Shown: positions 116-13,893 of the stretch, one piece after another | Layout of the letters: each line of letters begins with the position of its first letter | Numbering within the stretch: position 1 is the first letter of the stretch | Assembly (NCBI GenBank): GCA_028875225.1 | Contig: JAPPFB010000020.1 | Location: 1-64,000, forward strand | Length of the DNA stretch: 64,000 bases | Reading direction: 5' to 3' | Source: Chloroflexota bacterium | Lineage (GTDB): Bacteria; Chloroflexota; Dehalococcoidia; Bin125 | Notes under the pieces: model-generated | What the model saw: only the letters and a program-made list of their open reading frames with translations | Told to the model about the DNA's origin: nothing | Database searches by the model: none | Made by a program: the position numbers and the translations under genes

Positions 116-3100
116 TTGCGACTCGCCGGCAGACTGCTGCCCCCCCCCCGCCGAGCCTGGCGAGGCAGGCCGGTGAGGCGGGCCTCCGCGTGGTGGCTGG
201 CGCTCGCGCTGACCGTCATCCTAACGATCCCGGCCGCGCCGCCCTGGCACCCCAGCATCCAGGCGAGCGGCGATCCGCCGCCGGGCCCCTGCGAATCGGG
301 CTACGTCGCACCGACGCCGGTCCTCGTCGCGGTCAGCGAACTGCCGATCGTGGTCAGTTCGACTGCGGCGGACTACTTCGTGCTCTACGTCGAGCGACCC
401 AACCCGAACAATCCGCGCCGCTGGATCCCGGTCTCCGTCACCCGCGGCCAAGCGGGCACGACGACGCTCACGGACAACCTGGACGCGCTCAGCCCGGACA
501 AGTACCGGGTCGAGCAGTACCAGGTCGCCCAGCCGGGCGATCTGGACGGCGACTGCGTGGACGACATCACCGAGCTGGATGATCTCGGCGCTCAGAACCC
601 GATCAACCCGACCAGGACCACCACCGATGTCACCGTCAGAGCGGCGCTCGAATCTCGTCAGGCCTTCCAGGAGCTGTCGAGTCAGCGCGACGTTGACAAC
701 TCAGACTATGAACCGCTGAGCGGGCTCGAGTACGTCATGTTCTTGATCCTTGGTGAGTTCGAGAGCAACCCGTCCATCTACTTCATGGACTCCAACGACC
801 CAAAGTGGCATGCGGCGCTGCTTGAGGAGCTGCGGCAGCTGGGCGAACCCGAGCGTCACCTCCTGGTGGCGATGAGAGGCAATCTGGTGTATCACCCCAA
901 CGTGATCGCCCCGGACGGGTCGCTGGGCATGTACCGCTTCTCCTACAGCCTCGGCACCGGTGGCTTTTCCCGAACCGCGAACCTGTACCAGCTGCTCGCC
1001 TCGGCGATGCCGTTGCTCGAGAACAACCTGGCCTACTACCCGCGGAGCGAACAAGGACTCCTGCATTACCGCCGGGAGCAGGCCCAGTACGACGCGTCGC
1101 GGGTCAACATCCTGCTGCAGGAGGACATCCTGCCCGACGTGGACTACATGCCGCTCAACCAGGCCGAGGGCTACGGCCGCCTGCGCCTGATGGCGGCGGG
1201 TGATGAGCCGCGGCCGGGCGACATTCCGATCTACGAGTCGCTGCCCAATGACCTGCCGCGCGTGGCCGGATCGATCACGACCGTGCCGCAGACGCCGCTC
1301 TCGCACGTCAACCTGCGCGCCATCCAGAACGGCGTGCCCAACGCCTTCCTGCGCGACATCCTGACGACCAAGCAGTACGCGGATCTGATCGGCAAGCACG
1401 TCTACTTCGCCGTGGCCGCCGACGGATTCACCTTGCGCGAGGCGACCAAGGCGGAGGTCGACGCCCACCACGCGAAGTCGCGACCGACGGCGACGCAGAC
1501 GCTGACCCGCGATCTGAGCGTGACCGCGATCACGCCCCTGGCCAACGTGTCGTTCGCCGACTGGGACGCGTTCGGGGTCAAGGCGGCCAACATGGCAGAG
1601 TTGAGCAAGCTCAACCTGCCCGCCGGGGTCGTGCCCACCGGATACGCGGTGCCGTTCTACTTCTACGACGAGTTCATGAAGGCGAACGGCTTCTACGACG
1701 AGATCGAGACGATGCTGGCCGACCCGAGCTTCCAGTCGGACTACGCCGTGCAGGAGTCGATGCTCAAGGCGCTGCGCAAGAAGATCAAGAAGGGGACGAC
1801 GCCGGCCTGGATGATCAAGGCGCTGGAGGACATGCACGCCGCGTATCCGGAGGGCACGTCGCTGCGCTACCGCTCGAGCACGAACAACGAGGACTTGCCC
1901 GCGTTCAACGGGGCCGGGCTGTACAGCTCGAAGACACAGGATCCGGACGAGACGGCCGACGAGGGCATCGACAAGTCGATCAAGGCGGTCTGGGCGAGCC
2001 TGTGGAACTACCGGGCGTTCCTCGAGCGCGACTACTACCGGGTCGATCACAAGTCGGTCGCCATGGGCGTCCTGGTGCATCCCAACTACTCCGACGAGAA
2101 AGCCAACGGGGTCGCCGTCAGCCACGACCCGATCTCGTTCTCGCCCAACGCCTACTACGTGAACACCCAGATCGGGGAGGACCTGGTCACCAACCCCGAG
2201 GCCAGGTCCTATCCGGAGCAGCTGCTGCTGGACGCGAACGGCAAGGCGAGCGTGTTGACCCGCTCCAACCATGCCCCGGCGGGGCAGCTGCTGATGAGCG
2301 ACGCGCAGATGCGGCAGCTGCGCCGTCATCTCGAAGTGATCCACCACCGCTTCCGGCAGCTCTATCAGGTCAAGGACGGCGAGCGGTTCGCGATCGAGAT
2401 TGAGTTCAAGATCACGGCCGCGAACCAGCTGGCGATCAAGCAGGCCCGCCCCTGGGTCTTCGCCGAGACGCTCTCGCTGACACCGACCGTCTCGCTCGCG
2501 TTCGCAGAAGAGACGGTGACGGAGGGAGCGCCGCTGACGCTGGTGCTCAGCCGGCGCGGCGGCGATCGGTCGAAACCGCTGGACATCCAGCTCGAATGGA
2601 CCGACCCCGACGGCAAGATCCAGGGCACAGCCCCAACGTCGGCGCAGTTCCCGGCCGCTCAGGCGGCGCTGAGCCTGTCGCTGCCAACCGTCCTCACCGC
2701 CCAGGTTGAGCCGGAGAGCACGATTACGGCGCGGATCACAGCCAACAGCGCCTACGTCCTCGGCGACCCCTCTGCGGCGTCGGTCACGGTGACGGACCAG
2801 GCTGGAACGTCCGAACTGAGCATCACAGCCGGCCCCGACGTGACGGAGGGCGAGGAGGCGGTGTTTACGCTGACCGCTGATCCGGCGCCGATCACCCCGC
2901 TCGCCGTGCTCCTAACCGTTTCGGGCGACGAGGACTACATCTACGACCGGGACCTCGGTCAACGGACCGCGATCATCCCGTCCGGCGTCACGACCGTGAC
3001 GCTGCGCATCGGCACATCGGTCGACTCCCTCGACGAAGCTGCCGATGGACGCGTCGTCGCCACGCTGGACACACCGCTCGCCGACGCCGGCTACAGCGTC

Positions 3101-4891
3101 TCGGATACTGCGAGTTCGGCCAGCATCACGGTCGCCGACGACGACAACGGGGAAGGCCTCGCGTACACGGCCTCGCCCTCGGTCGTGGCAGCCGTCCGGG
3201 CACTCGCCGCGCAAACGCAGCACGGCTCCGTGCACGTGAACCGCTGGCAGCGCGTGCTGGTCGCCTTCGGCGAGCACGACGGCACCGGCGTCACGGGCGG
3301 CGCGATGACGGCCGCCGAGGCGCAGCAGATGGCGGACCGCCACAGCAGCCCCGTCTGGGACCAGGTGGTGGCGGAACTGGAGCAGATCGAATCGGGGACG
3401 GTCAAGCCTGTCACGATCTATCTCTTGCTCTACGCCGTTCAGCTCACTGAAGGCGGTCCGCTCTCCGGCGGCCCGGGCGCGGCCGGCCGGACCAAGTTGG
3501 CCATCGGCCTGAGTCGCGAGTTGCTCGCCGGAGAAACACTCGTCGTGCCGTTCAAGGTCGACGGCGACGCCGACGCCTGGCGCCTGAGCGATCCGAACGA
3601 CCCGAACGACCCGAACGCGAGCTTCGGCGCGCAATCGTCAATCACCTTCAGCGACAGCGACGGGTTCCTGACCTTGCTGGACCTGACGGCCGAGGACGAC
3701 GCCGACGCCGACGATGAGACGATCACATTCGACTTCGACAGCGCTCGACCGCCCACGCTGAACGGCAACACCGCCGGCGTCACGCTCGGCACGAACAGCG
3801 GCTTCGACGGCGTCGAGACGACCGCCACGCGGCTGATCATCATCGACGATGACCAGCCGCCGCCGCCGACGCCTGAGGTCAACATCACGAGCGCCGCGGA
3901 CGGCAGCGAGGGCGGCAACGTCAGCTTCACCCTGACCGCCACCCCCGCGCCGGCGGCCGACCTGCCGGTCACGGTCACGATCAGCGTCTCGGGCGACTAC
4001 GGCGTCACGGCCGGCTCGCGCACGGTCACGATCCCCGCCTCGGGCAGCGCCACGCTGACCCTGGCCACCACGGACGACCAGACCGACGAGCCGGACGGCT
4101 CGGTCACCGCGACCCTGGCCACGGGCAGCGGCTACACGATCGGCTCGCTCAGCGCCCAGACCGCCGCGGTCGCGGACAACGACGATCCGCCGGTCCCGGA
4201 GCTGGTCGTGACCCCGGTCGTCTCGATCACGGGCGGCAGCGCGATCACGGAAGGCGGCTCGGCTTCCTTCACGATCTCAGCCAACCCATCGCCAACGGCG
4301 GATATCGACGTCACCGTCACGGTCTCCGAGGTCGGCGACTTCGGCGCCTCGACCGGTCAGCGCACGGTCCGAATCACCTCGGGCCAGACGTCCCAGACGT
4401 TCACGGTCAGCACCGCCGACGACTCGACCGACGAATCCGACGGCTCGATCACGGTGAGCCTGGCATCGGGCAGCGGCTACACCGGCAGCGGCTCGGCCAC
4501 GGTCGCGGTCGCCGACAACGACGATCCGCCTCAGCCGATCGAGCAGGCCGACCCGCCGGTCGATGGAGATCTGCCCGACGTCGCGACGCTGACCGCGTGC
4601 GAGGGCGAGCCGGAGCTGCTGATCGGCAGCCCCACGGCCAGCCGCTCGGACGCCTCGGTCGACTTTGAGGTCATGCTCAGCTGCCTGCCCAGCGGCAACC
4701 CGATGATCCTCTTGGTCCCGGTGCGCGACGGCATCATCGGCGAGAACCTGTTCATCTCCCTGACCCGCGACACCCCGTCCGCGACGGTCACGGTGGACAT
4801 CGGCGGCGAGGCAGCACTCGGCCTCGCGATCGGCTGGGAAAGCGGTCTCGCCGGCAGAGATGTGCAAGGCGACGTCGTCTTCAGCGACTAG
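116..4891 (+). CDS. Giant secreted protein: GWD/PEP-synthase-like dikinase part plus Calx-beta repeats
   Basis: This 1591-aa protein has a hydrophobic signal segment at residues ~24-42 and is probably exported. Around residue 375-410 lies a phosphohistidine-like segment (TPLSHVNLRA). Residues ~481-775 match the PPDK/PEP-synthase ATP-binding domain (SLRYRSSTNNEDLP, NGAGLY, IKQARPW). Having the His domain before the ATP domain is the order of glucan water dikinase rather than PEP synthase. Several Calx-beta units follow (VTEG...FTLTA), then an insert module (residues ~1019-1094, MTAAEAQQMAD) and a Cys-containing C-terminal domain (~1486-1591) shared with the subtilase at 5989-12495. The start is uncertain: TTG 116 is in frame and GTG 173 is possible, while ATG 109, which has AGGAG upstream, is out of frame because of a run of ten C at 140-149. 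The substrate is unknown. Confidence 0.85.
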   Translation: MRLAGRLLPPPRRAWRGRPVRRASAWWLALALTVILTIPAAPPWHPSIQASGDPPPGPCESGYVAPTPVLVAVSELPIVVSSTAADYFVLYVERPNPNNPRRWIPVSVTRGQAGTTTLTDNLDALSPDKYRVEQYQVAQPGDLDGDCVDDITELDDLGAQNPINPTRTTTDVTVRAALESRQAFQELSSQRDVDNSDYEPLSGLEYVMFLILGEFESNPSIYFMDSNDPKWHAALLEELRQLGEPERHLLVAMRGNLVYHPNVIAPDGSLGMYRFSYSLGTGGFSRTANLYQLLASAMPLLENNLAYYPRSEQGLLHYRREQAQYDASRVNILLQEDILPDVDYMPLNQAEGYGRLRLMAAGDEPRPGDIPIYESLPNDLPRVAGSITTVPQTPLSHVNLRAIQNGVPNAFLRDILTTKQYADLIGKHVYFAVAADGFTLREATKAEVDAHHAKSRPTATQTLTRDLSVTAITPLANVSFADWDAFGVKAANMAELSKLNLPAGVVPTGYAVPFYFYDEFMKANGFYDEIETMLADPSFQSDYAVQESMLKALRKKIKKGTTPAWMIKALEDMHAAYPEGTSLRYRSSTNNEDLPAFNGAGLYSSKTQDPDETADEGIDKSIKAVWASLWNYRAFLERDYYRVDHKSVAMGVLVHPNYSDEKANGVAVSHDPISFSPNAYYVNTQIGEDLVTNPEARSYPEQLLLDANGKASVLTRSNHAPAGQLLMSDAQMRQLRRHLEVIHHRFRQLYQVKDGERFAIEIEFKITAANQLAIKQARPWVFAETLSLTPTVSLAFAEETVTEGAPLTLVLSRRGGDRSKPLDIQLEWTDPDGKIQGTAPTSAQFPAAQAALSLSLPTVLTAQVEPESTITARITANSAYVLGDPSAASVTVTDQAGTSELSITAGPDVTEGEEAVFTLTADPAPITPLAVLLTVSGDEDYIYDRDLGQRTAIIPSGVTTVTLRIGTSVDSLDEAADGRVVATLDTPLADAGYSVSDTASSASITVADDDNGEGLAYTASPSVVAAVRALAAQTQHGSVHVNRWQRVLVAFGEHDGTGVTGGAMTAAEAQQMADRHSSPVWDQVVAELEQIESGTVKPVTIYLLLYAVQLTEGGPLSGGPGAAGRTKLAIGLSRELLAGETLVVPFKVDGDADAWRLSDPNDPNDPNASFGAQSSITFSDSDGFLTLLDLTAEDDADADDETITFDFDSARPPTLNGNTAGVTLGTNSGFDGVETTATRLIIIDDDQPPPPTPEVNITSAADGSEGGNVSFTLTATPAPAADLPVTVTISVSGDYGVTAGSRTVTIPASGSATLTLATTDDQTDEPDGSVTATLATGSGYTIGSLSAQTAAVADNDDPPVPELVVTPVVSITGGSAITEGGSASFTISANPSPTADIDVTVTVSEVGDFGASTGQRTVRITSGQTSQTFTVSTADDSTDESDGSITVSLASGSGYTGSGSATVAVADNDDPPQPIEQADPPVDGDLPDVATLTACEGEPELLIGSPTASRSDASVDFEVMLSCLPSGNPMILLVPVRDGIIGENLFISLTRDTPSATVTVDIGGEAALGLAIGWESGLAGRDVQGDVVFSD
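3870..4545 (+). repeat. Two Calx-beta coding repeats
   Basis: Two adjacent units of about 100 codons are recognisable by the VTI..SGDYG and TVTIP-type strands, an acidic D(D/E)xTDE turn and closing DNDDPP. They are related at DNA level to the units in the subtilase gene at 5989-12495, so the two genes could recombine with each other. Confidence 0.75.
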
Positions 4892-4919
4892 CGCCGCAGC
4901 GCATCTCGCAGGTCACGAC

Positions 4920-4939
4920 GGGCGGCCCGCGGGCCGCCC
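4920..4939. terminator. Perfect 20-nt GC palindrome after the giant gene
   Basis: GGGCGGCCCG is followed directly by its exact reverse complement, 28 nt after the TAG stop. There is no T-tract, so it is not a classical intrinsic terminator. It may be a 3'-end stabilising hairpin or a protein-binding site. Confidence 0.4.
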
Positions 4940-5179
4940 CTCGCCGTCTGCGCAGCCGCCAGCGATGCGCGGTCAGCGCCCTCGGTCAGCCGCCCGCATC
5001 ACAGCGGTTGAGTCGAGCGGGATCGCCGACCGGTCCCGCGCGGAGCGGCGGTCGCTGCGACCCAGCGCCGTCAGCCTGCGGGTCGCTACCCTGCCCCTGA
5101 GGCTGACCGCGCCCCCGCGTCAGCCGGCCCACTGGAGCAATTGAGCCGCACCAGCCCCTGCGCGGAAGAGAGACAGGCC

Positions 5180-5929
5180 ATGCCCGACAGAAGCGTCCGC
5201 ATCGCGACCCGCAACGGAGAGCTGTCCGCCTTCTTAGCGACAGGGGCAACCACAGCGACGGGGGCGACCGGGGCGGGCGGCGGCGAGCCGCGGCCCGGCG
5301 TGCTCGTGCTGCACGAGCTGTTCGGCCTGACCGACGACATCCGCCGCATTGCGCGCCGCTTCGCCGAGCACGGCTACGTCGCGCTGGCGCCCGACCTCTA
5401 CTCCGTTGACCGCGCCCCGCGGCCGATCTGCATGCGCCGCACGATGCAGGCGCTGGGCGCCGGCGGCGGACGGCCGCTCGACGACATCGAGGCCGCCCGC
5501 GCGTGGCTGGCGGACCGTCCCGAGGTCGATGCCTCGCGCCTGGCCGTGGCCGGGTTCTGCATGGGCGGCGGGTTCGCGATCCTCTACGCCGCCCGTGCGC
5601 CCGTCGGCGCGGTCGCCGACTTCTACGGCGCCGTGCCCGAGCAGGCCGCCGCGCTTGAGGGCATCTGCCCCGTGGTCGGCGCCTACGGCGGCCGCGACGC
5701 CGTCTTCGGCAGCCACGCCGAACGCCTGCGCGGCCACCTGGACGCGCTCGGCGTCGAGCACCAGGTCACGGTCTACGACGACGCCGGCCACTCGTTCATG
5801 AGCGAGTACGGCCGCCTGCAGTCCTTGCTGGTCCGCTTCGGACCGATGCAGGCCGGCGGCCACCAACCCTCGGCCGACGCCGCCTGGACCCGGATGCTCG
5901 AGTTCTTCGAGCGCCAGCTCTCAGGCTGA
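5180..5929 (+). CDS. Dienelactone hydrolase family protein
   Basis: The 249-aa protein is an alpha/beta hydrolase of the DLH family (COG0412), which hydrolyses dienelactone-type or other small esters in the cytoplasm. The nucleophile elbow GFCMGGG carries the typical Cys; the acid is in GGRDAVF and the His in AGHSFM, so the triad is complete. ATG 5180 was chosen over an upstream in-frame TTG at 5141 because GGAAGAG lies just ahead and family proteins start near here. Residues ~20-38 form an odd Thr/Ala/Gly stretch (GATGAGGGEP) coded by an ACG/GGG-rich tract. It stands alone between two giant surface-protein genes and converges on the second. Confidence 0.9.
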   Translation: MPDRSVRIATRNGELSAFLATGATTATGATGAGGGEPRPGVLVLHELFGLTDDIRRIARRFAEHGYVALAPDLYSVDRAPRPICMRRTMQALGAGGGRPLDDIEAARAWLADRPEVDASRLAVAGFCMGGGFAILYAARAPVGAVADFYGAVPEQAAALEGICPVVGAYGGRDAVFGSHAERLRGHLDALGVEHQVTVYDDAGHSFMSEYGRLQSLLVRFGPMQAGGHQPSADAAWTRMLEFFERQLSG

Positions 5930-5953
5930 CGCCCCAGTTCAGCGGCTGACGCC

Positions 5954-5968
5954 GGGGCGCGGCGCCCC
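5954..5968. terminator. GC hairpin between convergent genes
   Basis: GGGGCGCGGCGCCCC can fold into a short GC stem and lies between the convergent stops of the hydrolase and subtilase genes. It is followed by a C-run and not a T-run, so a terminator role is only a guess. Confidence 0.3.
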
Positions 5969-5988
5969 CCCTCGCTAGTCGCGAGTCG

Positions 5989-8900
5989 CTAGTCCGTGAA
6001 CTGCACGTCGCCCTGCGCCGAGCGGTTGGCGAGACCCCGTTCAAAGGTGAGGGCCAGGCCGAGCCTGCGCTCGCCCTCGAGCTGCAGCGTGACCGTGTCC
6101 GAGGTCTGCTCGCCGCTCAAGCTGACGTAGTGATGTTCCGTGAGCACGCCGTCACGCAGCGCGGTCACCAGCATTGTTGCGCGGCCGCTGGGGATGCAGT
6201 CGAGCCTGACCTCAAAGTCGACCGACGCGTCCGCGCGGCTCGCGGTCGGGCTGCTGATCAGCAGCGTCGGCTCGCCCGCGCAGGCGCTCAGCACCGGCGT
6301 CACGGGCTGAACCACGACCGGCGGATCATCGTCGTCCGACACGGTCACCGTCGCCGTCTTCGCTGTGCCCAGGTCGTAGTCGGCGCCGTCGACCAGGGTC
6401 GCCGTGACCGAGCCGTCCGCTTCGTCCGTCTGATCGCCGGTCGTCGCGATCGTCAGCGTCACGCGGCCCGAGGCCGGAATCGTCACTGTCCGGTTGCCCG
6501 CCGCGACGCCGTAGTCGCCGACCGCGGCAATCGTGACCGTCACATCGAGGTCGGCCGCCGGCGCCGGACTCGCCGTCAGCGTGAACGTCACACGGCCGCC
6601 CTCGCTCACGCCGGCGCCGGCGCCGGCCGAGATGCTGACCACCGGCGTCTGCGGCGGCGGATCATCGTCATCCAGGATGATCACCGTGCCCGTGCTGGCC
6701 GTGCCCACGTCGTACTCAGCGCCGTCCTGCAGCGTCGCACTGACGAAGCCGTCGGCCTCGTCCGCCTGGTCGCCCGTCGTGGGGATCGTCAGCGTCAGGC
6801 TGCCCGAGGCCGGGATCGTCACCGTGCGGAAGCCGCTCGCCACGCCGAAATCGCCGCTCTTGCCGATCAGCAGCGAGACGTTCAGGTTCGACGTCGGCGC
6901 GGGACTCGCCGTCACGGTGAACCTGGCCCCGGAGCCCTCGGTCACGCTGCCGCCCGCCGCGATGCTCACGACCGGCGTCGGCGGCGGCGGATCATCGTCG
7001 TCCGATACCGCGACCGTCGCCGTCTTCGACGCGCCCAGGTCATAGGCTGCGCCGTCGACCAGGGTCGCCGTGACCGAACCGTCCGCTTCGTCCGTCTGGT
7101 CGCCCGCGGTCGCGAGCGTCAGCGTCTGGCTGCCCGAGGTCGGGATCGTGACCGTGCGCGAACCGGCCGTAACTCCGTAGTCTCCGACGGTCGCAATCGT
7201 GACCGTCACATCCAGGTCGGCCGCCGGCACGGGACTCGCCGTCAGCGTGAAGCTGACGTCGCCGCCTTCGCTCACGCCGGCGCCGCCCGAGATGCTGACC
7301 ACCGGCGTCGGCGGATCATCGTCGTCCGACACCGCGACCGTCGCCGTCTTCGAGGCGCCCAGGTCATAGGCGGACCCATCGACCAGCGTGGCCGTCACCG
7401 AACCGTCCGCTTCGTCTACCTGATCGCCGGTGGTCGCGATCGTCAGCGTCTGGCTGCCCGAGGCCGGGATCGTCACCGTGCGCGAACCGGCCGCGACACC
7501 GTAGTCTCCGACCGTCGCGATGGTGACCGTCACAGCAAGGTCGGCCGCCGGCGCGGGACTCGCCGTCAGCGTGAACGTCAGGTCGCCGCCCTCGCTGATA
7601 TCGCTGCCCGCGGCGATGCTCACCACCGGCACGGCGTTCAGGGACGCCTCCAGCGCCGTCAACTCGACCACCACCTCATCCCAGACGGGGCTGCTGTGCG
7701 CGTCAGCCATCTGCTGCGCCTCGGCGGCGGTCATCGCGCCGCCCGCGACACCCGTGCCGCCGTGTTCGCCGAACGCGACCAGCACGCGCTGCCAGCGGTT
7801 GACGTGGGCCGCGCCGTGCTGCGTCTGCGCCGCCAGCGTCTTGACCGCCGCGACCACGCTCGGATCGACCGTGTAACCCGGCGGCGGATCATCGTCATCC
7901 AAGATGGCCACCTGGCCGCTGCTGGACGCACCCACGTCGTACTCGGTACCGTCCAGCAGCGTCGCGCTGACGAACCCGTCGGCCTCATCCGCCTCGTCGC
8001 CCGTCGTGGGAATCGTCAGCGTCAGGCTGCCCGAGGCCGGGATCGTGACCGTCCGAAAGCCGCTCGCCACGCCGTAATCGCCGCTCTTGCCGATCAGCAG
8101 CGAGACGTTCAGGTTCTGCGTCGGCGCGGGACTGGCCGTCAACGTGAACCTGGCGCTCGAGCCCTCGGTCACGCTGCCGCCCGCGGCAATGCTCACGACC
8201 GGCGTCTGCGGCGGCGGCGCCAGATCGTCGTCCGACACCGAGACCGTCGCCGTCTTCGACGCGCCCAGGTCATATGCGGACCCATCGACCAGCGTCGCCG
8301 TGACCGAGCCGTCCGTCTCATCCGTCTGGTCGTCCGTGGTTGCGATCGTCAGCGTCTGGCTGCCCGACGTTGGAATCGTCACCGTTTGCGAGCCGGCCGT
8401 GACGCCGTAATCACCGACCGCCGCGATCGTCAGCGCCACATCCAGGTCGGCCGCCGGCGCGGGACTCGCCGTCAGCGTGAACGTCACGTCGCCGCCCTCG
8501 CTCACGCCGCTGCCGCCCGTGATGCTGACCACCGGCGTCGGCGGCTGGTTCTGACTGTTCAGGTAGTCCGACGCCTGCTTAAACGGACTATCCGGCCACT
8601 GCGCGGCCTTGGCGTGAATCTCCGACTCCGGCATCGCCGACTCGCCGCTGTTGTAGCCAATCGCCGCCAATACCCGGTTCCACTTGAGAATGTGAGCAGG
8701 ATTGCCGCGCACCAGATCGTTGGCTGGATTGTCGCGCACGTCGATCAGCAAATCGACGACCGTCTGGTAATCGGCGCTGGACGGCGCGTCGTCGTTGTCT
8801 GCGATGTCGACGCTTGCCGACGAAGGCGTCGCCGGCGTGTTATCGGGACCTGATAACACGGACGCCGTCACCGAACCGCCAGGCTCATCGACCTGATCGT

Positions 8901-11900
8901 CAGTGGTGGGCAGCGTCAGCGTCGCAGTGCCGCTCGTCGGGATCGTGACTGTCCGCGCGCCGGCAGAGACTCCGTAGTCTCCGCTGACCGTGACAAAGAC
9001 ATCCACAACAAAATCGGCCTCCGCCTTCGGCGACGCCGTCAGCGTGAACGTCGCGTCGGCGCCCTCCGTCACGTCCGCGCCGGCCGCAATGCTCACCTCG
9101 GGCTTCGCTTCGTCGTCCTCGATCTCAACCGTGATCGCGGCCGGATCCGCCACGCCTCGACCGCCGCTGGCCGCGGCCGAGATCTTGAACTTCTTCGCCG
9201 TCGCCGTGCTTAACTCATAGAGAGCATTTTCTACCGACGAGAATGCCGCAACACCTGTACTACTCGTCGCGCCTCCTGCGATGGTCAGCGTCGCGTGGGT
9301 GAGAATCGATCCGTCCGCCGCGACCGCCGGGGCGATTGGCGTCGCGCTGAGACTCAGCGTGACTGATTCCTCAGCCGCGTGACTGAGGCTGGCCGTGATC
9401 GTGACGGAATCGCCCTCGGCGACGGTTGACGACGACGTCTTGAGCGTCACCGTGGGGACCGCTTCGTCGTCGGCAATGGTCACGCTCACCGGATTGCCGG
9501 CCCGCATAAATCCCGCCGGCAGTGCGCCCAGGCGCACGACGAACGTCTCCGCACCCTCATACACCGTGTCTTGGGTAATCGCCAGCTTTGCTGTTGCCGA
9601 TGTCGAGCCGGCGGGAATCGTGATCGACGCGAGCGCACCATAGTCCGCGCCGGGCAAACCGACTGGGGTGGTGTTACTGTCTGCGAACTGCAACGGGATG
9701 ACCAGATCCGCCGCTAGGGGGTCGCCATCCACTGCGACGCTCAAGCTGAGCTCGCCGCCCTCGGCCACGCTGAGTGGGGCGGCGCTCAGGCGGACGGGCC
9801 GTCCAGACTCCGCCTTGTGACCGTACACGACCAACTTGAATGCTTCGATTTCCTCGTCGATACCCTGCATCTGCGAGCACAAAATGCTATGCAGCGCAGA
9901 GACCTGGTTGCCGCAGACGGTCACATCCGCATCATGGCGACGCACCTTGACCTTCCAGGCGCCCGACCCGCCTTCCCCCAGATGCCGATTCGAGCCGAAA
10001 TGGAATGTCCCGATCCATGAGCAGACGATGCTGCGGCAGTTCAAGTATTCTGGCGCCAACAATGATTCTGTGCCCGACGGAGAAACCAGCGTCCAGCGAT
10101 ATGCGCGCAGATCAAAGATGTCAGCCGTGATCGAAATGGTGACCTGCTCGACAAAGTCGATCGTCGTGGTGACATCCGCCGTCAGGACAATCTCGTTGCC
10201 ATAGGTTGGCAAGGCCGCCACGGTGCTGGAAGCGACTGCGGCCGACTGCTCAGCCGGCAGCAAGCTCCAGTTGCTCGCGGCTTGCACCGCGGCCGAGGCA
10301 TCGACCGTGCCGAAGCCGTACTCATTGTTGAACGAATACTTCTCGCCGCTCGAGCCATACTTGTCCCCTGCGCTGACCCAACCCGGGTTCGTCGGATCGT
10401 TCTTCTGCGCGGTGTTGGCCAGGATCAGCTTCACGTCGCGCCAGGTCAGGTCGCTGTTCGCGCTGCGCATCAGCGCGATCACGCCGGAGACGATCGGGGC
10501 GGCGGCGCTGGTGCCGCCGAAGCTATCCGCGTAGTACTCAGCGCCGACCGTGGTCAGGATGCCCGGATACCTGCCGCTGGTGTCATTCGAGGGGGCGCAG
10601 ACCCAGAGGCTGGGTCCCTGCTCGGAGTAGTCCGCTGCCACTCCGTACAGGTTGACGGCGCAGGTGGCGATCACGCCGCGATGATTGTTCTGTTCGTCTA
10701 GCGTCGCCCAATCTGCGCCGATAAACCGGCCGCCATTGCCGGCGGCAACCACATACAATGAGCCCTTGCCGCCGAAACCGGAGCTCAGCCCTTCCTCAAC
10801 CGCGCGCCGCCAGCCATCGCTTCTCCGCGCGATCCTGACATCATCCCCGGGGCCAAAGCTCATGTTGTAGGCGGCAACTGTTTCCTTGTTCAGCGTCAAC
10901 GCAGCGATCTTGTTCGCGCTCGATTGCTCATCAAGGAAGTTGTAGTTGACCAGCGTCGCGCGCGGCGCGACCCCGCGGCCGCCGACGGCGTTGTCGCGGG
11001 CGGCGATCACGCCCGCCACCGCCGTCCCGTGGTAGGAGCCGCGCTTCGTCGGATCTTCACCGGTGCGGCCGCCCCAGTGCTTGGTGCGGGTTGCGTCAAC
11101 GTTGTCCTTGAGGTCTGGGTGCCCCCCCTCCCACGTATGATCGATCACGGCGACCGTGACACCCGCACCCATCGTCGCTTCCCAGATGTTGCCTAGATTG
11201 ATATCAATCGTCGGGTCCTTGCCATCGAAACGATAATTGGTATCCGCATTCAGGTGCCAGAGGCAGCCCGACAGCGCGTCGGGGTATTGCTTCCAGTCGC
11301 TGCACCGCACTTGCGCAAGGCGCGTCGCCCAGGAAAAGCTGTTCGCTTGCAACTCCGGCGCCTCCGACAGCGGCGTGTAGAGGTTGGGCACGGCGCTCTC
11401 AACGCCCGGCTCCGCCGCCAGCGCGTCGGCCAGTTGCAGCGTTTCGAGGTCGGAAGCCGTGCGGATCAGGTAGGCGTTGGGCAGCTCGCCCAAGGGTTCG
11501 ACGCGGTCGCTGGGAACGTTGTGCCGAGCCAGGATGGCGCTGATCTCGCTCTCAGTAAGATGCGAAGCGAAGAACACGTTGACGCCGCCGACGAGCAGGA
11601 AGAGCTGGCCGCCCTGGGAGGCGAACCAGTTGCTCGGCGTGGCCAGCGTGCTCGCGGTGCCGTTCAGCCTGTCGACGCCGACCGCGGGCGCGTAGGCCTC
11701 GCCCGCGTTCGCGGCGAGCGCATCCAGGTCGACGCCGCCTGGTGGTCCGTCGCCCTCCACCAGCGCATGGGGCGCGCCGGACGACGGCAGCAGGCGCAGC
11801 TCGATCGCTCCGCCGCCGTCGCGCAGGCGGTAGACGCCGTCGGGACCGAGATAGTCGAGCACGCTGACCGGTCCGGTCGGCTCGCCCAGCGGCGGCGCGT

Positions 11901-12690: not shown

Positions 12691-13893
12691 GTGTCCCTGC
12701 CGCTGAGACCGCTGGCGCACCGACGGCGTGCGGCTTTGGCGACCCTCGCGCTGCTGGTGCTGGCGCTCGCGGCCGCGGTCTTCGCTCAGGGCGGGAATCA
12801 GCGCGTCCTGGCCGCGACCCCCGGCGCCGATCAGCCCGTCCTCCAGCTCACCTGCCGGAGCGTGGGTGAGTTGATCGGCTGCAAGTTGATCAGCTCGCGC
12901 GCACTTGCCGAGGATGAAGGCGTGCAGTTCGTCCTCGCGCGCGGCGCCGAGACCGAGACCATCGTTGCGACCCGCGAAACGAACATCGTCTTCCGCTCCA
13001 GTTCGTCCTGCGGCCAGCGCGCGGGCCAATGCTACGTCTTCTCGTTCACCCCGGAAGAGGATGGCGGCGAAGACTTCTCGATCACCGAGGTGACGCCGGT
13101 CGTCTCGGGCGTTGAACCACCGACGACGGCGGATACGTCGCCGACGGACGCCGGCACAGCAGAGCCTCAGTCACCGCTCAGGACGCAAGCGCAGGTCGAG
13201 CCGCCACAGTCCACTCCGACCACGGCAGAACAGACCCCGACGCTTGAGGAGACGAGTCGGGCCACCGAGGCGGACCAGCCCGACGCCGTCACCGCCCAAC
13301 CAGTGCAAGCACAGGTCGAGCCGCACCAGTCCGCTCCAGCCACGGAGGATCAGCCTCACACCGTCGTGGCCCGAACGACGCCGGAACCGGTCGCCGCCAC
13401 CGACGACGAGATCAACGAGACGCCGCAACTGTCGCCCGAGGAGATCGCCCGCCGGCAGCGGGAACACGAACAGCGCATGGCGGACGCCCAACAGGAGCTG
13501 GACGACGTCAACGCCGAGATTCGCAGGCGGCAGGAGGAAGGCGACTGGCCGGAGCGCGATCCCGACACTCCCGAAGATGTGCTCTCGGACGCCGAACTCG
13601 AGGCGGAGCTGGCCGTGCATGAAGAGCTGCATCGGCAGCGGCAGGCGGAGCAAGAAGCGGAACGGCAGCGGCAGCGGGAGAACCGCTTCCCCTCGCATCC
13701 CGGCGAGGACAGCGAGATCGTCGTCCTCGACTTCCCCACCGAGAACGAGGACGGCGACCTCCCGGAGGGCGCCTTCCAGGAGTGGACCGTCGAACTGCAC
13801 GCCCTGATCGAGGCCGGCCAGCCCTTCCTCGTCTGCGACCACAACGAAGTCGCAGACGACGGCGGCCCGCTCTGCACCTGGGAGAACCAGTAA
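12691..13893 (+). CDS. Secreted protein with Pro/Thr/Gln-rich linker and charged coiled coil
   Basis: I do not recognise this 400-aa protein. Residues 1-32 look like a signal peptide (RRAALATLALLVLALAAAVFA). A small domain with several Cys follows (LTCRSVGELIGCK ... CGQRAGQCYVFSF). Then comes a Thr/Pro/Gln-rich linker containing two copies of a ~45-residue segment (each with QAQVEP.QS.P). A long Arg/Glu/Gln-rich helix (~residues 245-325) is probably a coiled coil, and the C-terminal part ends in CDHNEVADDGGPLCTWE. GTG 12691 is the only start with a ribosome site nearby. It is divergent from the giant subtilase and probably belongs to the same surface-protein group. Confidence 0.7.
   Translation: MSLPLRPLAHRRRAALATLALLVLALAAAVFAQGGNQRVLAATPGADQPVLQLTCRSVGELIGCKLISSRALAEDEGVQFVLARGAETETIVATRETNIVFRSSSSCGQRAGQCYVFSFTPEEDGGEDFSITEVTPVVSGVEPPTTADTSPTDAGTAEPQSPLRTQAQVEPPQSTPTTAEQTPTLEETSRATEADQPDAVTAQPVQAQVEPHQSAPATEDQPHTVVARTTPEPVAATDDEINETPQLSPEEIARRQREHEQRMADAQQELDDVNAEIRRRQEEGDWPERDPDTPEDVLSDAELEAELAVHEELHRQRQAEQEAERQRQRENRFPSHPGEDSEIVVLDFPTENEDGDLPEGAFQEWTVELHALIEAGQPFLVCDHNEVADDGGPLCTWENQ

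Follow-up and report, generated by a model that had tools for sequence, protein, structure and literature searches.

Organization of the locus

The analysed stretch of DNA (the window, 64,000 nucleotides) forms the start of a 278 kb contig (C23) of the source genome G000, a Chloroflexota assembly of 3.22 Mb that is 96% complete. Two giant genes, encoding the proteins referred to here as A and B, are arranged convergently, and a gene of the dienelactone hydrolase (DLH) family sits between their 3' ends (Table 1). The reading frame of A starts at 116 and closes at 4888, with the TAG stop codon at 4889–4891; position 1486, from which an earlier note on this DNA had counted the feature, is no gene boundary. 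The PPDK_N domain of A (ATP-grasp type) belongs to an exported protein and would thus be placed in an extracellular setting, in which ATP is scarce. Its homologues were found in G009, G013 and G004. Upstream of B, positions 12691–13893 of the forward strand encode an exported-looking protein of 400 aa without a convincing family match.

Table 1 Features of the locus, with window coordinates or residue numbers (aa); CTD, C-terminal domain.
Feature	Position	Strand	Basis and content
Protein A, 1591 aa	116..4891	+	ORF; signal peptide, PPDK_N, Calx-beta/LapA-like repeats with one helical insert, CTD
PPDK_N of protein A	aa 486-780	+	Pfam, E 7.7e-23
Calx-beta/LapA-like repeats of A, before CTD	2813..4531	+	Alignment and blastp of A vs B; homologous to the repeats of B
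CTD of protein A	4580..4888	+	Alignments; HMM hit at E 2.7e-53 in the source genome
DLH-family gene between A and B	5141..5929	+	Pfam DLH, E 8.1e-47
Protein B, 2168 aa	5989..12495	-	ORF; signal peptide, subtilase, P domain, Calx-beta/LapA-like repeats with two helical inserts, CTD
Subtilase of protein B	aa 443-729	-	Pfam Peptidase_S8, E 5.9e-39; also P_proprotein and Calx-beta matches
CTD of protein B	5992..6306	-	Sequence alignments, HMM; AlphaFold2 prediction of an Ig-like sandwich (pLDDT 74)
Calx-beta/LapA-like repeat array of B, before CTD	6319..9102	-	Alignment

The homology of the last ~105 residues of A and B, which the earlier note had proposed, was confirmed, as an alignment of 100 aa from the two ends showed 56% identity (E 1e-40) and scored 116 bits, against 20 bits for the best of 200 shuffled controls. 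The strings and DNA positions it had quoted were correct, 5992–6306 being the last 105 codons of the minus-strand gene of B, while the motif that it gave as C-x2-PSG is in fact C-x-P-S-G (CLPSG/CIPSG). The homology is, however, not limited to these ends: residues 721–1591 of A align with residues 1257–2168 of B (blastp, segments of 360 and 257 bits), and the two proteins therefore share their whole C-terminal half, composed of a Calx-beta/LapA-like repeat array, a helical insert and the CTD. A helical-looking module (VDPxVVAxVxxLAxQTQHGxxHVNRWNRVLVAFGEHDGTG...SSPVWDxVVxELTALE) recurs between the beta-repeats, namely at residues ~1000–1100 of A, at ~1250–1310 and ~1550–1620 of B, and in many CTD proteins of the genomes G393, G394 and G429 introduced below; it showed similarity to Pterin_4a only, below the cut-off.

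Anatomy and predicted fold of the C-terminal domain

Alignment of 25 intact copies (residue numbers follow B) revealed that C9, P13, R24, D26, V29, F31, C37, P39, R51, L63, T71, L82, L84, G91 and V101 are invariant, and that the stop codon directly follows the domain in all 25. Most copies are preceded by an acidic, proline-rich linker, and this in turn by Calx-like repeats or polyproline. An AlphaFold2 model of medium confidence (pLDDT 74) predicts a seven-strand Ig-like sandwich for the CTD, for which we infer a C9–C37 disulfide. A fold search with the CTD returned nothing below E 1e-3, the best VIA Z values of 8–9 were spread across unrelated Ig/Fn3 domains, and a sequence search of the PDB gave a sole match at E 0.11. 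As the earlier note had anticipated, no named family emerged from searches of Pfam, NCBIfam and PHROGs. The Pfam Calx-beta model (PF03160) did not match any of five CTDs scanned alone at E up to 10, and a literature search found no paper describing the domain. The CTD is a terminal module that has no name as yet.

Distribution in two phyla and probable exchange at protein ends

The source genome contains four CTDs, two in the window and two on contig C11, where the copies again converge on a DLH gene, which is 87% identical to that of the window. This C11 block (L011, 1–4314), which could represent a duplication or a contig of a divergent strain, shares ~84% DNA identity with the A-DLH-B end block, and since a transposase-like ORF is joined to its subtilase-like end, the copy is probably broken. 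The CTD was detected in 3 of 15 genomes of the window's genus (G000, G002 and G005) and, among 393 genomes of its class, in one further clear case (G336); short partial matches in G111, G119, G044, G223 and G245 (E ~1e-4 to 1e-2) and in G549 and G657, which belong to another order, were not counted. Outside the class, where 397 genomes from the order of G393 were sampled, intact copies plus fragments were found in G393 (RHO3_bin_18, titled Acidimicrobiaceae; five intact), G394 (RHO3_bin_35; seven) and G429 (five). WhiB is an actinobacterial marker and matched only Corynebacterium among 14 control genomes; as it was missing from all 10 genomes that represented the clade of the window, while G393, G394 and G429 each have four to six copies, we conclude that two phyla, Chloroflexota and Actinomycetota, carry the CTD. 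Across the two phyla, the domain was found on several N-terminal partners that are unrelated to each other, and it is not confined to the two paralogous ends. Mis-binning is unlikely for the CTD loci of the window and of G002, which lie on contigs of 278 kb and 221 kb, but the genes lie near contig ends, and it could conceivably account for some of the copies. A viral or plasmid origin was rejected, as viral contigs and plasmids gave no match.

Homologues of A and B from the same genus have different ends. In G013, the PPDK homologue of A ends in a canonical Calx-beta domain, whose last strand closes the protein, and the subtilase homologue of B ends in He_PIG domains, while in G009 the PPDK homologue stops shortly after PPDK_N; as all three are devoid of a CTD, the domain is an optional module. 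B shares 70% identity over 2177 aligned positions with a subtilase of G393, whereas in the subtilase/P-domain region (aa 406–910) its identity to the homologue from G013, of the same genus, drops to 40%, which implies a transfer between phyla. Within the last 40 residues, identity to the G393 subtilase falls to 52%, and the G393 CTD resembles the C11 copy (68%) more closely than the CTD of B, which points to an exchange of modules at the protein ends. A subtilase of ~2160 residues that is 70% identical in two phyla suggests that such surface proteins are traded across phyla, an aspect relevant to the sharing of surface functions among co-occurring bacteria.

Partner domains and export signals

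CTDs are joined to a subtilase with P domain (B, and twice in G393), to PPDK_N (A), to Fn3 (G394 L081) and to a GLUG-like region (G394 L084; Pfam E 0.026, below the cut-off), while L021 and L075 are CTD repeat proteins truncated at the N-terminus. In two further proteins, G394 L087 (E 3e-21, 76 bits) and G429 L119 (E 7e-49, 165.7 bits), the N-terminus is a choice-of-anchor R domain (NF041539, cut-off 30 bits), which an NCBIfam scan did not find in A or B. In NCBIfam usage, the choice-of-anchor class takes its name from exchangeable C-terminal anchors, and the CTD fills the anchor position in these two proteins. A hydrophobic segment resembling a signal peptide was present at each of the seven N-termini that were inspected, which sets these carriers apart from cytoplasmic proteins; in A this segment (aa 23) is the sole hydrophobic one, and B likewise shows none beyond its N-terminal segment.

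Polyproline runs of 24–67 residues, not always adjoining the CTD, were measured in five CTD proteins of G394 and G393. Very long polyproline was seen in L084, L086, L087, L081, L021, L119 and L123, often just before the CTD, and several contigs break near such runs. Calx-beta domains are enriched in sponge microbiomes (PMC9531527). The source genome also encodes a giant exported fn3 protein on contig C15 (L045, a 2581-aa ORF), in which the motif EGGLMS(G/D) recurs, once at the C-terminus, and is possibly a different end motif.

Sorting signal, end cap or retention domain

The earlier note had compared the shared end with sorting or anchoring domains of the PEP-CTERM or Por type. The general pattern held, as the CTD is always terminal, follows unrelated N-terminal architectures and accompanies export signals, but the assignment to PEP-CTERM- or Por-type sorting was not supported. 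No C-terminal transmembrane helix or basic tail was found in the 25 copies (maximum KD19 of 1.55 within the last 120 aa; 0–2 K/R in the last 15), nor was an LPxTG-like motif in their last 60 aa, and a signal of the LPXTG/PEP-CTERM type was rejected on these grounds. A link to co-occurring transpeptidase or secretion genes, also suggested earlier, was checked for sortase only, whose presence does not follow the CTD: two PF04203 sortases occur in each of 11 of 11 same-genus genomes searched, CTD-positive or not, whereas G429 encodes five CTDs and no sortase was found in it. The CTD was therefore rejected as a sortase substrate. Two tandem sortases of the source genome (G000:C5:23909-25297) are kept in all same-genus genomes searched.

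The explanation we favor, though tentatively and at slightly short of even confidence, is that the CTD acts as an autonomous surface-retention domain and not as a processed sorting signal. According to this proposal, a modular, disulfide-stabilised Ig-like domain would terminate diverse Sec-exported giant proteins and bind a surface polymer by itself, without cleavage, thereby holding the N-terminal parts (protease, PPDK-like, choice-of-anchor and others) at the cell surface or in the extracellular matrix, with the beta-repeats or polyproline ahead of it as spacer. This is consistent with the strictly terminal position in 25 of 25 intact copies, with several unrelated partner types, with multiple CTDs in each of the three Actinomycetota MAGs, and with spacers swapped between Calx-like repeats and long polyproline tracts. 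The signal-peptide-like segments, the choice-of-anchor R partners, the invariance of C9/C37, R24, D26 and R51 and the Ig-like model likewise speak for it. The preservation of the B gene at 70% across phyla, together with a single type of CTD locus in the window genome, also fits a self-sufficient domain. On the other hand, an Ig-like fold says nothing on function, the invariant residues could be purely structural, and the same-genus homologues of A and B without a CTD indicate that it is dispensable for those families.

Alternatively, the CTD might be a structural end cap, in which a Calx-beta-like domain has diverged and simply finishes off the repeat array, shielding the C-terminus. We consider this unlikely. 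In its favor, visual comparison aligns the final CTD strand (G-D-V-x-F-S-D) with the A-T-V-x-V-S-D of the repeats, a weak profile similarity exists between both (hhalign P 0.0014, probability 17%), and the G013 PPDK homologue finishes in a canonical Calx-beta domain. However, some CTDs of G394 and G429 directly follow polyproline without an adjacent repeat, the Pfam Calx-beta model does not recognise the CTD, and its C, R, D and R residues are strongly conserved. A true sorting signal would require a dedicated machinery for export or attachment that recognises the folded CTD and might also cleave it, in the manner of the T9SS CTDs of Bacteroidota; this appears about as unlikely or slightly more so. 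Terminal position, several copies per genome and diverse exported partners, choice-of-anchor proteins among them, would all suit such a signal, and the C-terminal region of PorU is found among the structural matches (Z 8.8). This match is, however, tied with many unrelated Ig/Fn3 folds, the window genome has one type of CTD locus only, and T9SS is described for Bacteroidota in the part of the literature considered here. Moreover, sortase does not co-vary, and a comparison of neighbouring genes revealed no conserved enzyme and none common to more than a few loci, the most widespread neighbour family resembling ABC-transporter ATPases. More doubtful still is a targeting tag of an undescribed, T9SS-CTD-like surface-attachment or secretion route of Actinomycetota and Chloroflexota that would be exchanged together with its cargo. 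Finally, a substrate- or host-matrix-binding module that acts away from the producer cell, like the accessory domains of secreted enzymes, is improbable, as many partners are not recognisable enzymes and the match to a GbpA domain (residues 315–412, Z 8.5) is generic and one of many ties, even though protease partners would suit such a role.

Comparison with known systems

The CTD sits where known proteins carry exchangeable anchors and represents a recurrent unnamed module of giant exported proteins of uncultured bacteria, which the CTD alignment and the partner list now make testable. Like the tripartite signals (PEP-CTERM, LPXTG and GlyGly-CTERM), it is C-terminal, multicopy and found on unrelated exported proteins with signal peptides. 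These signals are, however, short and combine a motif with a transmembrane helix and a basic tail, within ~24 aa for PEP-CTERM (PMC1569441), whereas the CTD comprises ~100 aa, is predicted to be folded, has none of these elements and is not linked to sortase. T9SS CTDs (Por secretion) are likewise folded and C-terminal, and they too mark Sec-exported proteases including subtilases and occur beside choice-of-anchor domains (PMC11982257); in contrast, the CTD phyla are Actinomycetota and Chloroflexota, and no T9SS model of NCBIfam matched A, B or 20 CTD members. With the choice-of-anchor R class, the connection is the N-terminal domain common to two CTD proteins and absent from A and B. The Calx-beta/LapA repeats adjoin the CTD in many partners and resemble it in weak profile similarity and in the terminal strand, but the CTD, which fits neither Pfam model, has an invariant cysteine pair, is always the last domain and sometimes follows polyproline alone.
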